DNA from: Candidatus Nezhaarchaeota archaeon
Lineage (GTDB): Archaea > Thermoproteota > Methanomethylicia > Nezhaarchaeales > B40-G2
Assembly: GCA_026413605.1 (NCBI GenBank)
Contig: JAOAKM010000004.1
Coordinates: forward strand, 1 to 59,997
Length of the DNA: 59,997 bases
Direction: 5' to 3'
The notes under the pieces were generated by a model, which was not told where the DNA came from, did not search any database, and was given only the letters and a program-made list of their open reading frames with translations. The position numbers were made by a program, and so were the translations under genes. Below, one piece after another: positions 46,742 to 53,898 of this stretch; position 1 is the stretch's first letter; every line of letters begins with the position of its first letter.

Positions 46742-47311
46742 TTAAACTTTCCCTCTCAATTGGAGCAGGTAGTTAGCCAAACCCTCAAGAGCCTTCCTCC
46801 TATGCGATATTTCATTTTTAATGTCTCCTAGCTCTCCATAAGTGCGGCTGCCCATGTTTTTAGGAATAAATATAGGGTCGAAGCCCCAGCCTTCTCCACG
46901 TTCTTCAGTCGACAATTCCCCCTCAACGACTCCAGTGAATACTAAAGGTTCCTCTGAGTCTAAGCAGAGAGCTACAGCTGACTTAAACATGGCCTTTCTA
47001 TTCTTAACTCCTTCCATGAGCTTTAGGATTCCTCGACAACCGAGCGTTCTATGGACATATGACGAATATGGCCCAGGAAAGCCGTTTAAGGACTCTATGA
47101 ATAATCCAGAGTCCTCAGTAAACAGTGGTATCTTAAGCTTGGCATAGGCTTCCTTAGCTTCTTCAGCAGCTACCTTCTCTACGTCATCTAGTTGTCTCTC
47201 CACAACATTAGCATCGACCTCTATGACCTCTACGAATGGAGCTAGTCGCCTTAATATTTCCCGAGCCTCCTTGAACTTATCAACGTTACTGGTTACGAAA
47301 GCTAACTTCAA
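46742..47311 (-). CDS. rdgB: XTP/dITP pyrophosphatase
   Basis: Ham1/RdgB family enzyme of 189 residues that removes deaminated purine triphosphates from the nucleotide pool. Signatures are FVTSNVDKFKEAREIL at the start, FTEDSGLFIESLNGFPGPYSSYVHRTLG, WGFDPIFIPKNMG and EISHRRKALEGL. Start TTG 47311. It is divergent from rps15. Confidence 0.95.
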   Translation of the reverse strand: MKLAFVTSNVDKFKEAREILRRLAPFVEVIEVDANVVERQLDDVEKVAAEEAKEAYAKLKIPLFTEDSGLFIESLNGFPGPYSSYVHRTLGCRGILKLMEGVKNRKAMFKSAVALCLDSEEPLVFTGVVEGELSTEERGEGWGFDPIFIPKNMGSRTYGELGDIKNEISHRRKALEGLANYLLQLRGKV

Positions 47312-47369: not shown

Positions 47370-47816
47370 TTGAAGAAGGGGAGGCAAAAGGGAAAATCCC
47401 ATTCAACAAGGCCCGTGGTAAGCGAGGCATTAAACATCTGTAGCTTAACTGAGGGGCAGGTTGAAGACCTCGTCGTTGAACTAGCTAAGAAGGGATACAG
47501 CCCCTCAATGATAGGGATGATGCTGAGAGATCAGTACGGAGTTCCTCTGACAAAGCTAGTGATAGATAAAAAAATTACCCAGGTATTGAGGGAAAGGGGG
47601 CTGGCGCCCAAGATTCCAGAGGACTTAGCTAACTTAATAAAGAGAGCAACACGCGTTAGAAGGCATCTAGAGGAGCATCCAAAGGATAACTTCTCAAAGA
47701 GAGGACTACAGTTAATAGAGTCTAAAATACATAGGCTAATAAAGTACTATAAGCGCGAAGGAGTGCTTCCCCTCGATTTTGAGTATAAGCCTGAGGAAGT
47801 TGCCGTCATCACTTAA
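47370..47816 (+). CDS. rps15: 30S ribosomal protein S15
   Basis: Archaeal S15 (eukaryotic S13), 148 residues. The segment [39 protein letters not shown] and [24 protein letters not shown] are diagnostic. The likely start is TTG 47370. The next gene begins after 6 bases. Confidence 0.95.
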
Positions 47817-47822
47817 AGTTCA

Positions 47823-49154
47823 ATGACCTCCATTCCTCGTCAGCTTAGAAATAGAATTAGTGAGGCCTTGGCACTGATTGAGAAATGGCCTAGGGTAAGT
47901 GGAAAGGTAACTATATTGGCTAAGCGGAGTGTTGATGGTGCGTGCTCAGCGGGGATCATGGCCAAGTTGCTCACCTACTATAACTGCCCCTTTGAAGCTA
48001 GGGCGTTGGGCCTAGAAGAGCTCGCAGGTACACTGCAGAGAAGCTCAACGGTTATTCTGGATCTCCCCCTTCCACTAAGCACTAGGGCAGAAGGGGGCTG
48101 GCTTCAAGTAGGTCACCTGCCACCCTTTAGAGGAGAGGACGAAGTGCTTTCAATTCACTCTGAGCTTTCAGGCTTGAATGGGTTTACTGAGGCGTGTACC
48201 TCAAGCTTAATTTACCTTCTAGCACACGAAGCAGGGGTGGTTGAAGATGAGGGTAGCATTATGTTATTGTGTGCTGGTATACAGGGCGAAGAACAAGTGG
48301 GATCGCTCTCGAGCCCGCTCCAAGGACTTAATCGTGAGCTTGTTATGCCATTAGTAGAAAAAGGTTTAGTTAGAGTAGGAAGGTCCCTCAGCCTATTTTC
48401 GAGCGAAGTCCCTTTGTCCCTAGGATTAACAGTAACGCTAGACCCTCCCCTTAAGAGAATATTAGGCAGTGAGGATGATGCTAAGAGGCTTCTTGAAAAG
48501 GCAGGTCTTATTAACTTATCTGATAAACCCCTCTCAACGTTAAGCGAAGAAATTAGGAGCAAGCTAATTCAATGCCTACTTACAGAGGCCTTAGCCTCTG
48601 GGCTTGAGATCTTAGAGGCTGAGAAATTATTGAGGATTTCACTTAGAGTGAGGGCAGAGGAAAGAGTGGAGGATATGGCTGAGGCGTCACGTACTATCGA
48701 TGCCTGCGCTAAGCTTGGACGATTGGCGCTTTCCATCCAGTCATTCTTAAAGAGGAGGCCTTCTGCCCTTGATAAAGAAAGGTTAGAAGCCTCTTTCACC
48801 TATATAGCTCACTTGGCTCGGAAAACGAGAGACTTGGTTATGCATCTAGATACCCAGCCTACTACATGCTTATTTGAGTTAAGTCCTGAGCTGAGGGGGT
48901 TCACACTCGATGTCGCGCGCTGCCTAGCGACCCTTTATCCATTAATGATGCTAGGGATTTATACCCGCGCCAATAATCTCCTAAAAGTTTCAATAGCTTG
49001 GGGGAGGAAAGCCACCGAGGGAAAGGAGATTACGAGTAGGTTGATGTCACTAGCCGAGGCACACCAAGGTCTACTCGAAGTTGGCCATAGATGGCTTGAA
49101 ATAGTAGTATCCGCCGAAGTAATGGATCAAGTTAAGGCCCTATTAAAGTGTTAA
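47823..49154 (+). CDS. DHH-family RecJ/Cdc45-like protein with degenerate active site
   Basis: Protein of 443 residues. Its position after rps15 is where archaea keep a RecJ-like DHH gene that pairs with GINS. The DHH motifs are recognisable but lost: motif I reads ILAKRSVDGACSAGIMAKLL where an acid-rich H-x-DADG motif is normal, VILDLPLPL stands for motif II, and VLSIHSELSG stands for the DHH motif. It should therefore not cut DNA. A structural Cdc45-type role in the replicative helicase with the GINS at 18632 is the best guess. Confidence 0.75.
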   Translation: MTSIPRQLRNRISEALALIEKWPRVSGKVTILAKRSVDGACSAGIMAKLLTYYNCPFEARALGLEELAGTLQRSSTVILDLPLPLSTRAEGGWLQVGHLPPFRGEDEVLSIHSELSGLNGFTEACTSSLIYLLAHEAGVVEDEGSIMLLCAGIQGEEQVGSLSSPLQGLNRELVMPLVEKGLVRVGRSLSLFSSEVPLSLGLTVTLDPPLKRILGSEDDAKRLLEKAGLINLSDKPLSTLSEEIRSKLIQCLLTEALASGLEILEAEKLLRISLRVRAEERVEDMAEASRTIDACAKLGRLALSIQSFLKRRPSALDKERLEASFTYIAHLARKTRDLVMHLDTQPTTCLFELSPELRGFTLDVARCLATLYPLMMLGIYTRANNLLKVSIAWGRKATEGKEITSRLMSLAEAHQGLLEVGHRWLEIVVSAEVMDQVKALLKC

Positions 49155-49157
49155 GAG

Positions 49158-49397
49158 TTGAAGCTAAGAGTTGAAGTTAGACTGAGATTAAACTCACCTG
49201 ATCTAGCAGCTTCAGCTGCGAGGGCCATTGAGGTGGATAATCGTCAGTCCCCTAAAGATATCGTAGTGGCCTGTGAAGCAAGAGACAACGAATTAACAAT
49301 AAGCATCGCCTGCGAGAAACCATTGAGAACCCTCTCGACGATAGAGGACTTATTTACTTGTTTGGCGCCACTCATAAGGCTTAAGGACTTGCTTTAA
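49158..49397 (+). CDS. pcc1: KEOPS complex subunit Pcc1
   Basis: Protein of 79 residues that forms the dimer scaffold of KEOPS, which makes t6A37 in tRNA. VEVRLRLNSPDLAASAARAIEVDNRQ and the later RTLSTIEDLFTCLAPLI match archaeal Pcc1. Start TTG 49158, four bases after the RecJ-like gene. Kae1 and Bud32 are close by at 52213 and 53257. Confidence 0.85.
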   Translation: MKLRVEVRLRLNSPDLAASAARAIEVDNRQSPKDIVVACEARDNELTISIACEKPLRTLSTIEDLFTCLAPLIRLKDLL

Positions 49398-49456: not shown

Positions 49457-51028
49457 TTGAGGTTTAGGCTTAAGGCTTGGCTAGAGTTTAGCTCCTCCAT
49501 TGGAGAGTATACAAGGGATTTAGCTCAGATGATTAAAGAAGTCAACGAGGGCGTTCTAATCAAGGGGGCAACGGATGCTAATGAGGCAGCAAGGGTGTCT
49601 TCATGGACAATACACGGTAATAAAGTGCTTCTAGAAATAGTGAGTGGTAAGGGCGTAAGAGCTCATGATGGCCTACTAAGAATACGTAGGTACCTTGCCC
49701 AAGCTTTAGGCTCTAAGTTTAAAATTGGCCTTAGGAGAGTACACGTAGAGGTACTTGAAGTAGAGGTACCTAGCTTAGCTCTCAGCATAGAAGAAGTAAA
49801 GCAAAAGCTTGAGGGAATAGCTGAAGTAATGGCAACGGGAGACAAGTTTACTGTAACATTTAGAAATCTTAGCGAGGAGGACCTCGAGGATCGAGTCATC
49901 GATAGAGCACTACGAAAGCTAATAAAAGAGGAGAAGCGGAAGGCTAAGAGGGAAGAAGGGGTTGAGCTAGTTCCATACGGCTTTGTACTTCGCCGCTCGG
50001 CCGAGAAATTCATATTATTTACGAGTGAAGTGGCACAGGAGGCTGAGAGGCTTGGTTGGATTAAGAGGTTTCCTGCGCGTGGACAATGGATCTTTACAGC
50101 TCCCATGACCTCCCTGATATCAGCCATAAGGAACATAATAGTGGATAACATCTGTAAGCCGCTTGGCTTCCAGGAATGGATCTTTCCGCGGCTTATTCCT
50201 TTCGAAGTGCTTAAGAAACTATCCACATATGTCGAGCACTTGCCTGAAGGCATGTTTTACGTCTGCGCCCCTCCAAGGGATCCGAAGGCATTCGAGGAGT
50301 TTAAGCGGGAATTTGTGCTACGCCGCAAAATTAGGGCAGATATTCTAAAAGAAATTTTAGAGCTGCCTTCATACGTCCTGGATGCTATTCAATGTGCACC
50401 ATTTTACCAATTCTTTAGCGGAGAACTTGTGAAGGTTGAGAGCCTCCCGGTGAAGGTCTATGACTATGCAGGTGGCTGGACTTGGAGAAATGAAGGTGGT
50501 GGGGTGGAAGGGCTCGCTAGAACCAATGAGTTCCTCAGACTTGAGATGGTTTACTTAGGCGTGCCTGAGCAGGTAGTGGAGCTTAGAGACAAGGTAGTGG
50601 AGAGGACAATAGAGGTAATAGACAAAGTCCTGGATTTAGAGTGGAGGCTTACAGTAGGCGCCCCTTTCTACTTATCACAAGAAGAGGCAAGTAGGAGGCT
50701 AGTGGATATATCGACATCTTCAAAGATACCAGCCTTAGACGTAGAATGCTACTTGCCATATCGTGGAGGTCGCGAGGCAAGCGAATGGTTAGAAGTAAGT
50801 GCTTGTAATGTACACATGACGCACTATGTGGATTCCTTTAAGATAAAAGAGGTTAAGGGGAGGGAATTATGGACCGGCTGTGTTGGCCATGGACTTACTA
50901 GGTGGGCTACTGCTTTTCTAGCTCAAAAGGGCTTTGACTTCGACAGCTGGCCTAAGGAGGTTAAAGAGCGTATTGGCTCGCTTCCACCACCAATAACCAC
51001 CCTAACCTGGCCCTCAAAGATAGAGTAA
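49457..51028 (+). CDS. serS2: Seryl-tRNA synthetase, rare methanogen type (SerS2)
   Basis: Class II synthetase of 523 residues. The N-terminal domain (MRFRLKAWLEFSSSIGEY) and HDGLLRIRRYLAQALGSKFKIGLRRVHVE match methanogen SerRS, not the coiled-coil arm of ordinary SerRS. Zinc ligands fit IQCAPFYQF (cysteine), TNEFLRLEMVY (glutamate) and TGCVGHGLTRW (cysteine). Motif 2 is RNEGGGVEGLARTNEFLRLE and motif 3 contains TGCVGHGLTRWA. Start TTG 49457. It lies between pcc1 and rps3ae. Confidence 0.92.
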   Translation: MRFRLKAWLEFSSSIGEYTRDLAQMIKEVNEGVLIKGATDANEAARVSSWTIHGNKVLLEIVSGKGVRAHDGLLRIRRYLAQALGSKFKIGLRRVHVEVLEVEVPSLALSIEEVKQKLEGIAEVMATGDKFTVTFRNLSEEDLEDRVIDRALRKLIKEEKRKAKREEGVELVPYGFVLRRSAEKFILFTSEVAQEAERLGWIKRFPARGQWIFTAPMTSLISAIRNIIVDNICKPLGFQEWIFPRLIPFEVLKKLSTYVEHLPEGMFYVCAPPRDPKAFEEFKREFVLRRKIRADILKEILELPSYVLDAIQCAPFYQFFSGELVKVESLPVKVYDYAGGWTWRNEGGGVEGLARTNEFLRLEMVYLGVPEQVVELRDKVVERTIEVIDKVLDLEWRLTVGAPFYLSQEEASRRLVDISTSSKIPALDVECYLPYRGGREASEWLEVSACNVHMTHYVDSFKIKEVKGRELWTGCVGHGLTRWATAFLAQKGFDFDSWPKEVKERIGSLPPPITTLTWPSKIE

Positions 51029-51071: not shown

Positions 51072-51683
51072 ATGTCTCAGAGGCCTAGGCGTGCGGTTAA
51101 GAGGCCGGCTGCTAAGGCCTACTATAAAATACTAGCCCCCCCTGCCTTCGGCCTTACTGAGGTAGGTGAAACTTTTGCCTCCTCCCCAGACAAGCTTATA
51201 GGAAGAACAGTGTGGGTATCGCTCTACAGCCTAACCAACTACCCTGCGCAACAACACATAAAGCTCCTATTCCAAGTAGTAAAGGTAGAAGGTAATGTGG
51301 CATATACCGTGTTTAAGGGACATGATATGGCTAGAGACTACTTAAGGAGTTTAGTAAGGAGGGGGTCTTCACTAGTTGATAGCATCTTTGATGTCTATAC
51401 TAAAGATGGATGCAGGCTGAGGGTAATGGTAATGGCTGTGACCTTGAAGAGGACGCGTAACTCCCAGAAAAGGGCCATTAGGAAGGTGGTAAAGCAAGTA
51501 GTAGAAGGAAAGGCCCAACAGCTCAACTTCGATGAATATGTGCAAGAGATGGTTCTGAGCAAAATAGCCTCTGAGGTCTTCAATGCAGCAAAGAAGATTT
51601 ATCCGTTAAGAAAAGTAGAAGTGAGGAAGTCTAAGACCCTAGAGCTTGTTCCTCACCTAGTAACTGTAGCCTCAACCGCTTAG
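51072..51683 (+). CDS. rps3ae: 30S ribosomal protein S3Ae
   Basis: Archaeal/eukaryotic S1e protein of 203 residues. Segments IGRTVWVSLYSLTNYPAQQHIKLLFQV, GHDMARDYLRSLVRRGSSLVDSIFDVYTKDG and TLKRTRNSQKRAIRKVV match. Start ATG 51072. Order rps15-recJ-pcc1-rps3ae is common in Thermoproteota, except that serS2 is inserted here. Confidence 0.95.
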   Translation: MSQRPRRAVKRPAAKAYYKILAPPAFGLTEVGETFASSPDKLIGRTVWVSLYSLTNYPAQQHIKLLFQVVKVEGNVAYTVFKGHDMARDYLRSLVRRGSSLVDSIFDVYTKDGCRLRVMVMAVTLKRTRNSQKRAIRKVVKQVVEGKAQQLNFDEYVQEMVLSKIASEVFNAAKKIYPLRKVEVRKSKTLELVPHLVTVASTA

Positions 51684-52212: not shown

Positions 52213-53223
52213 TCACTGTCTCCAGTGCACGTCAACTTCGTCGAGCCTCCACATAGGCTTAACGAAGCTCTCGTCTATATTCGTGGTGTCGCCGTGTTTA
52301 AAGTGGAGGAGGCCAGTCCATGCTATCTGGGCCCCGCAATCACCAGAGTATTGAGGAGGAACGACGTGAAAGGTGGCCCCGTGCTCCTCAGCAACAGCCT
52401 TCATGACCTCCTTTAACCTCTCATTAGCAGCTACTCCTCCAGTTAAGAGGAGAGCGGGCTTCCCTGTAAAGGCTAAGGCTCTCTCGGTCGCTTCAGCGAG
52501 CATGGAGAAAGCATACTCCTGAATTGAGAGACAAAGGTCTTCTAACTTGGTTCCCTCCTTAAGTTTCTCAAGAGACGCCGTTAACAGGCCTGAGTACGAC
52601 ACGTCGTTGCCCTTGACTATGTAGGGTAGCCTAATTACCCTAGAGCCGTTTCTAGCCAGCTTCTCAATTAGTGGGCCTCCAGGAGAAGGTAAGCCGGCTT
52701 CTCTAGCGAAAGTATCGAGCAGATTGCCTAACGTTATGTCTAGCGTCTCTCCAAAGACCCTATACCTACCATCAACAAACGTAGTTATTGTGGTGTGCCC
52801 TCCGGACACTAGAACTACTAATGGGTCTTCAGCTCCGGTTGTTAGCCTGGCGATCTCTATGTGGCCAATGGCATGGTTTACACGAACCAGTGGCTTATTT
52901 AGAAGAGCTGCTAGGGCTCTAGCTATAGTAGCTCCAGTACGGAGACAAGGACCTAAGCCTGGACCTGCCGAGAAGGCTATTAGATCTATATCCTTTAGCG
53001 TCACCTTTGCCTCCCGTAAAGCCTCCTTTAACACCCTAACTCCTACTTGGCTATGATGTTGAGCACTTTCCCTTGGATGTATTCCTCTGCCTAGGGGTGG
53101 TTTGTAGACATCCTTTACATCGGACATGATTTCTCCATCCTCGTTTGCAATAGAGACCCCAAAAGTATGAGCAGTGCATTCTATTCCGAGTGAAAGTAGA
53201 GGTCTGCCTCTCAACCTACTCAC
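52213..53223 (-). CDS. kae1: KEOPS complex subunit Kae1 (TsaD homologue)
   Basis: ASKHA-fold enzyme of 336 residues that transfers threonylcarbamoyl to A37 of tRNA. Signatures are LGIECTAHTFGVSIANEDGEI, the metal site in HPRESAQHHSQVG and VRVNHAIGHIEI, LVSGGHTTI and the C-terminal GGVAANERLKEVM and QYSGDCGAQIAWTG. Start ATG. It is divergent from bud32, 33 bases away. Confidence 0.96.
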   Translation of the reverse strand: MSRLRGRPLLSLGIECTAHTFGVSIANEDGEIMSDVKDVYKPPLGRGIHPRESAQHHSQVGVRVLKEALREAKVTLKDIDLIAFSAGPGLGPCLRTGATIARALAALLNKPLVRVNHAIGHIEIARLTTGAEDPLVVLVSGGHTTITTFVDGRYRVFGETLDITLGNLLDTFAREAGLPSPGGPLIEKLARNGSRVIRLPYIVKGNDVSYSGLLTASLEKLKEGTKLEDLCLSIQEYAFSMLAEATERALAFTGKPALLLTGGVAANERLKEVMKAVAEEHGATFHVVPPQYSGDCGAQIAWTGLLHFKHGDTTNIDESFVKPMWRLDEVDVHWRQ

Positions 53224-53256: not shown

Positions 53257-53898
53257 ATGAGCGGCTGGAAGAGATTAAAGAAGGGGGCTGAGGCAGAACT
53301 TTATTTGACTCAATGGCTTGGCTTACCAGTAGTTGTAAAGCGGAGAGTGCCTAAGCCGTATCGGAGGCCGGACTTTGACCTTCAATTAAGGAGGGCCAGG
53401 ACACTGAAGGAGGCTTCGCTAATGATAGCTGCTCGAAAGCAGGGGGTGCCCGTTCCTTTATTATTGTGCGTTGATGTTGCGGAGACTTCGCTAATCATGG
53501 AGTACCTCGAGGGGCCTACTCTTAGAGACTTACTGGTGGCTGGTATCGATGTGGAGGAGGCTATGCGTCAAGTGGGTCGTTACATTGGTAGGCTTCATTA
53601 TGGGGGCCTAGTCCATGGCGACTTAACTACCTCCAATATGATAGTGCTGGACAACAAGGTATTTCTACTAGACTTCGGGCTGGGGGACTATAGCGCCTCC
53701 ATAGAGGCAAGAGGGGTTGACCTACACTTAATGCTCAGAGCTCTTGAAAGCCTAGTACCAAGTAGGGCTCATAAGCTCTTTGCCACGGTGTTGAAAGGAT
53801 ACGCAGAGGTAATGAGTGGTTTAACACAGGAAGTAGTTAAGAGGGCAATGCTAGTTAGGCTAAGAGGTAGATATGTAGAGGAGAGGAGGAGTCAGTAA
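53257..53898 (+). CDS. bud32: KEOPS complex kinase/ATPase Bud32
   Basis: Small RIO-like kinase of 213 residues that activates Kae1. The lysine region is LPVVVKRRVPKPYRRPDFD, the catalytic loop is GLVHGDLTTSNMIV near residue 123, and the metal motif is LLDFGLGDYS near 140. Start ATG. It stands alone and divergent from kae1, whereas many archaea fuse or join them. Confidence 0.95.
   Translation: MSGWKRLKKGAEAELYLTQWLGLPVVVKRRVPKPYRRPDFDLQLRRARTLKEASLMIAARKQGVPVPLLLCVDVAETSLIMEYLEGPTLRDLLVAGIDVEEAMRQVGRYIGRLHYGGLVHGDLTTSNMIVLDNKVFLLDFGLGDYSASIEARGVDLHLMLRALESLVPSRAHKLFATVLKGYAEVMSGLTQEVVKRAMLVRLRGRYVEERRSQ

Follow-up and report, generated by a model that had tools for sequence, protein, structure and literature searches.

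Seryl-tRNA synthetase (SerRS) exists in a common form, SerS1, and a rare zinc-dependent form, SerS2; the two are presumed to catalyse the same reaction, whereas SerS1 has another N-terminal domain and no zinc. Structures are available for SerS2 of Methanopyrus kandleri (3w3s) and Methanosarcina barkeri (2cim, 2cja and 2cjb). Surveys of 2011 and 2015 placed SerS2 only in Euryarchaeota, essentially in methanogens (PMC3191353, PMC4427996), a 2024 review describes it as restricted to methanogens (PMC10817482), and to account for the methanogen enzyme an ancient donor, unknown or extinct, has been invoked (PMC4427996, PMC3191353). From the position of the SerRS root, the methanogen-type enzyme has also been proposed as the original archaeal SerRS (PMC8821087). 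A literature search that left aside subscription journals and preprints found no report of SerS2 in Bathyarchaeota, Aigarchaeota or Thermoproteota. Here we analyse a serS2 gene (49457..51028, forward strand) in a 59,997-nucleotide stretch of contig JAOAKM010000004.1 (the window) from a Candidatus Nezhaarchaeota archaeon (GCA_026413605.1), a member of Thermoproteota. Very probably, this gene encodes the only SerRS of the cell, has been inherited within the order Nezhaarchaeales, is no marker of methanogenesis and sits in an old slot of isozyme exchange.

The product has 523 residues and begins at a TTG codon, a start supported by the initial methionine of homologues in the same alignment column. 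The first-pass annotation of the window had proposed a SerS2, and profile and structure matches bear this out. PF18490 (tRNA_bind_4) matches the tRNA-binding domain at residues 1–159 with 131 bits (cut-off 25), the class II core spans residues ~200–510, PF00587 matches with 33 bits, and the SerS2 models NF002120 (544 bits) and TIGR00415 (461 bits) match over the full length. Solved relatives align over nearly the whole length, namely, the SerRSs of M. kandleri (3w3s, E 5e-108, ~36% identity) and M. barkeri (2cim, E 2e-86, ~30% identity). Both have the domain order, PF18490, zinc triad, motif 2 Arg/Glu and motif 3 Arg in common with the window protein, which differs from them by one additional residue in motif 2, by a host without mcr and by scores under the curated cut-offs. 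An AlphaFold model (pLDDT 85, pTM 0.68) has 3w3s and four M. barkeri entries as its top PDB matches (TM 0.72–0.79), followed by amino acid:[carrier protein] ligases and then ordinary SerRSs. As the next structural neighbours, the ligases (e.g. Bll0957, 3mey) have a homologous class II core, and yet it is highly improbable that the window protein is such a ligase or another class II enzyme: the ligase model NF005479 yields 71 bits (cut-off 357) against 544 bits for NF002120, the tRNA-binding domain, which the ligases lack, is present and the genome holds no other SerRS. The ordinary SerS model TIGR00414 gives only a partial match of 15.9 bits, so that, as the annotation had predicted, the protein aligns with SerS2 and not with ordinary SerRS. 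ProRS (prolyl-tRNA synthetase), SerS1 and carrier-protein ligase identities were dropped on the profile scores, and the window enzyme joins a known family as a further, new member.

The Cys-Glu-Cys triad noticed in the first-pass annotation is likewise present. The predicted zinc ligands C313 (codon 50393..50395), E363 (50543..50545) and C475 (50879..50881; all on the forward strand) are invariant in 17/17 and in 93/93 aligned SerS2 proteins. They align to C306, E355 and C461 of the M. barkeri enzyme (chain positions 326, 375 and 481 minus a 20-residue tag), which we take, from the structure papers of 2006, to be its zinc ligands. R344 and E346 of motif 2 and R482 of motif 3 are also invariant in all 93 proteins. 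The motif 2 stretch VYDYAGGWTWRNE (residues 334–346; 50456..50494, forward strand) contains a one-residue insertion found in 28/28 proteins of Nezhaarchaeales and Caldarchaeales but in 0/65 others, an independent mark of the clade formed by these two groups. Judging from homology, serine would be bound via a zinc ion that C313, E363 and C475 coordinate, seryl-adenylate would be formed in the class II core, and tRNA-Ser would be recognised by the SerS2-specific N-terminal domain and then charged.

The host draft genome (1.40 Mb in 147 contigs) was searched for one protein family at a time, including the check for serS1 and mcr genes that the annotation had proposed. It contains a single SerS2, the only SerRS found. 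Within this 95.6% complete genome a TIGR00414 search did not find SerS1, its sole match (41 bits) being a ProRS-like open reading frame, and mcrA, mcrB and mtrH were not found either, while methanogen positive controls matched. The host is indeed a TACK (Thaumarchaeota, Aigarchaeota, Crenarchaeota and Korarchaeota) archaeon. SerS2 is present in 9/9 Nezhaarchaeales genomes and mcrA in 4/9, and mcr-bearing members include named Nezhaarchaeota such as WYZ-LMO8. By contrast, the statement that this SerRS is known mainly from methanogens does not hold for the 398 sampled Thermoproteota genomes, about one in six of which (64/398) carries SerS2, with mcrA absent from 59 of the 64. SerS1 is found in 312 genomes, neither isozyme in 22 and both together in none (lists cross-checked by hand); such mutual exclusion fits an equivalent function of the two. 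mcrA is present in 27 genomes, 5/64 SerS2 carriers versus 22/334 non-carriers, showing no association (Fisher p 0.79, relatedness ignored), and the idea that SerS2 is a sign of lost methanogenesis was dropped on the result of this exact test across the phylum. Outside Thermoproteota, SerS2 occurs in Hadarchaeota, Methanoliparia, Methanobacteriales, Methanococcales and Methanopyri. ‘Methanogen-type’ SerRS is a misnomer here, the enzyme being a broad archaeal isozyme that trades places with SerS1 at a conserved operon position. L035, L036, L037, L033 and L034 (families f63, f65, f66 and f43) make up a deep SerS2 clade of Thermoproteota with ~35% identity to the window protein, and their hosts are mostly near-complete genomes without mcrA.

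The nearest named relative of the window protein is SerS2 of Thermoprotei archaeon B40_G2 (71% identity), followed by those of WYZ-LMO8, which a near-identical SerS2 protein places in Nezhaarchaeales family f2, and other Nezhaarchaeota (54–58%). In the SerS2 tree, the window protein groups with B40_G2 (support 100/99) and then with family f3 (95/92), and Nezhaarchaeales, f2 included, join Caldarchaeales (100/99). The Caldarchaeales proteins (Geocrenenecus, Wolframiiraptor, Pelearchaeum and Calditenuis) form the sister clade, with 52–56% identity and the same motif 2 insertion. B24-type Bathyarchaeota come next, then a clade of Hadarchaeota and Hecatellales/Bathyarchaeota, and the class I methanogens with Methanoliparia lie on the opposite side of the tree. 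That the host operon received its serS2 recently, by horizontal transfer from a methanogen, would accord with the first descriptions of SerS2, which came from methanogens (PMC4427996, PMC10817482), and with the in-place serS swaps that do occur between pcc1 and rps3ae; it is nevertheless very unlikely, given that all nine Nezhaarchaeales genomes carry SerS2, that the closest clades are TACK and that the approximately unbiased (AU) test rejects a constraint joining the Nezhaarchaeales proteins with those of Methanoliparia and the class I methanogens (lnL -124.7, p-AU 2e-98). The AU test refutes the sampled methanogens as serS2 donor. The first-pass annotation had called for a tree of both isozymes. 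In a quick tree rooted with SerS1, the SerS2 proteins of class I methanogens branch from within those of TACK archaea and Hadarchaeota; its outgroup branch is very long, and its deepest SerS2 branches, and hence the SerS2 root, stay open. Two further placements concern other hosts: the mcrA-bearing L055 (G109, family f6) of the host's class has a SerS2 of a different clade, with L133 and L056, which adjoins methanogen SerS2, and L099, from a bin titled Aenigmatarchaeota, has one from the Nezhaarchaeales/Caldarchaeales/Bathyarchaeota clade, reflecting transfer or misbinning.

The descent of the operon was followed in a tree of the neighbours rps15, recJ-like, pcc1 and rps3ae. Nezhaarchaeales form a clade (95/98) with an inner split of f1 and f3 versus f2, and the branching of SerS2 within the order agrees with it. 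Caldarchaeales are placed with Bathyarchaeia in this tree, and joining them with Nezhaarchaeales is rejected (AU p 5.5e-4). A SerS2 sister to that of Caldarchaeales, with operon neighbours that are not, points to a gene that is probably native to Nezhaarchaeales but crossed between the two groups at some time without the operon. Because serS2 lies in the operon in f1 and f3 and outside the pcc1–rps3ae slot in Caldarchaeales, the comparison suggests Nezhaarchaeales or a relative as the source. The chance that the contig is misbinned or contaminating is next to negligible, even in a draft of 147 contigs: it bears the operon of the lineage itself, the tree of the neighbours gives the same relatives and all members of the order agree.

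The slot is bounded upstream by pcc1 (49158..49397, forward; KEOPS subunit, PF09341 and synteny) and downstream by rps3ae (51072..51683, forward; eS1, PF01015 with 221 bits and synteny), in the gene order rps15 - recJ-like - pcc1 - serS2 - rps3ae. The same order is found in B40_G2, Bathyarchaeota/Hecatellales, Hadarchaeota, a deep Euryarchaeote (L124) and Methanoliparia, often with kae1 - bud32 - ham1 in front; f3 has the pcc1-serS2-rps3ae arrangement minus recJ, and Methanobacteriales retain pcc1 - serS2. Elsewhere serS1 stands between pcc1 and rps3ae (L161, L162, L239 and L240) or the slot is empty (L201–L205 and L207–L210); in families f4, f5, f7 and f2, pcc1 adjoins rps3ae and serS is located elsewhere. 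A direct view of exchange is provided by two members of one genus, G059 (L038) with serS2 and G154 (L239) with serS1 between pcc1 and rps3ae. Their Kae1, Bud32, Ham1, Rps15, RecJ-like, Pcc1 and Rps3ae proteins are 95–98% identical, and the flanking DNA is 93–96% identical to ~40 bases beyond pcc1, with identity resuming at the 3' edge of serS. The G059 contig ends ~580 bases after rps3ae, and a chimera would require two clean joins. The difference between the two is, on this pattern, best read as an in-place replacement. A third member of the genus, G275 (L240), also carries serS1 there, and this gene, as well as its flanks, shows ~84% DNA identity to the G154 counterpart; parsimony therefore favours a change from serS1 to serS2 in G059, though it may have been the reverse.

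The first-pass annotation had left two origins for the window gene, ancestry in a methanogen-related TACK lineage or transfer into the operon. Inheritance within the lineage is supported by the presence of SerS2 throughout the order and by branching that matches the operon neighbours. Transfer into the operon is a real process, as the sister-species swap illustrates, but here it would need to be older than the ancestor of the order, with no sampled methanogen as its donor. For the deeper history, we see about an even chance that the ancestor of Nezhaarchaeales acquired serS2 by transfer (or passed it to Caldarchaeales), in replacement of a serS1 inherited in the class. Other orders of the class use SerS1 (f4, which we infer from its mcrA and class to be Methanomethylicales, and f5, f7 and f8), and the sister position and common insertion of Nezhaarchaeales and Caldarchaeales SerS2, which their operon neighbours do not follow, fit the same account; alone, however, it fails to explain why Hadarchaeota, Bathyarchaeia and Methanoliparia have serS2 at this position too, unless each is an in-slot replacement. 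It is possible, if rather less probable, that SerS2 is the ancestral archaeal SerRS, present between pcc1 and rps3ae from the last archaeal common ancestor onwards, with serS1 displacing it in most lineages. Such ancestry has been proposed from the SerRS root position, the archaeal type there being the methanogen enzyme (PMC8821087), and the slot is the same in TACK and in euryarchaeal lineages. Weighing on the other side, several lineages have serS1 in the slot instead, transfer is seen for SerS2, the best-dated swap looks by parsimony like serS1 to serS2, and the SerS1-rooted tree has its very long outgroup branch and open deepest forks.

Several observations tell against an enzyme inherited in Nezhaarchaeales from the ancestor of the order within this slot. 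The sample of the order is nine genomes only, and monophyly of its SerS2 proteins reaches just 84/46 in the SerS2 tree; given this weak value, serS2 may have passed between Nezhaarchaeales and Caldarchaeales after the order split. Furthermore, the mcr-bearing family f2 has serS2 outside the operon. The window protein also scores below both curated NCBIfam cut-offs (544 versus 611 bits for NF002120 and 461 versus 489.6 bits for TIGR00415), which, in these equivalog models, are a naming threshold and not a biochemical feature. Only 5/398 Thermoproteota genomes pass the NF002120 cut-off, and the SerS2 thresholds therefore seem tuned to methanogens.

With these points taken into account, the order-inherited sole SerRS is still the reading we favour. 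serS2 would have been inherited in Nezhaarchaeales since at least the ancestor of the order, and the position between pcc1 and rps3ae is old, filled across archaea by serS2, serS1 or nothing. The isozymes replace each other there, probably via recombination within the conserved genes on either side; the redundant isozyme was presumably lost after replacement and a single one retained. With its clean edges and two unlike enzymes of apparently equal function, the slot offers a clear example from nature of an essential gene replaced in place. The distribution of SerS2 is in contradiction to current reviews and matters for the question of which SerRS served the first archaea. Together with the common slot, its occurrence in Thermoproteota and Hadarchaeota makes an unseen donor less necessary, and which archaeal SerRS came first is now testable by genome comparison. 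If SerS2 were ancestral, methanogens would merely be the first survivors noticed.

Among the neighbours, the annotation of rps15, pcc1 and rps3ae is confirmed, as is an aIF5A gene, and the sole tRNA in the window is a tRNA-Ala. The first gene of the operon is rps15 (47370..47816, forward; PF08069 and PF00312), preceded by the divergent ham1 (46742..47311, reverse; NTP pyrophosphatase, PF01725), which is an operon neighbour in other archaea. Downstream, kae1 (52213..53223, reverse; KEOPS, PF00814), also an operon neighbour in other archaea, is inverted here, and bud32 (53257..53898, forward; KEOPS kinase, PF01163 RIO1) follows. The RecJ-like assignment of the second operon gene (47823..49154, forward; DHH family) stands on different ground: the protein is strongly diverged, has no Pfam match and is recognised solely by iterative hidden Markov model search and by its position. 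The DxDG and DHH motifs were not found in the RecJ-like proteins of the window and B40_G2, recJ is missing between rps15 and pcc1 in f3, and in f1 and f3 the protein seems to be in decay or inactive. The serS gene beside pcc1 is inverted in two serS2 loci (L045 and L067) and in two serS1 loci (L164 and L167).
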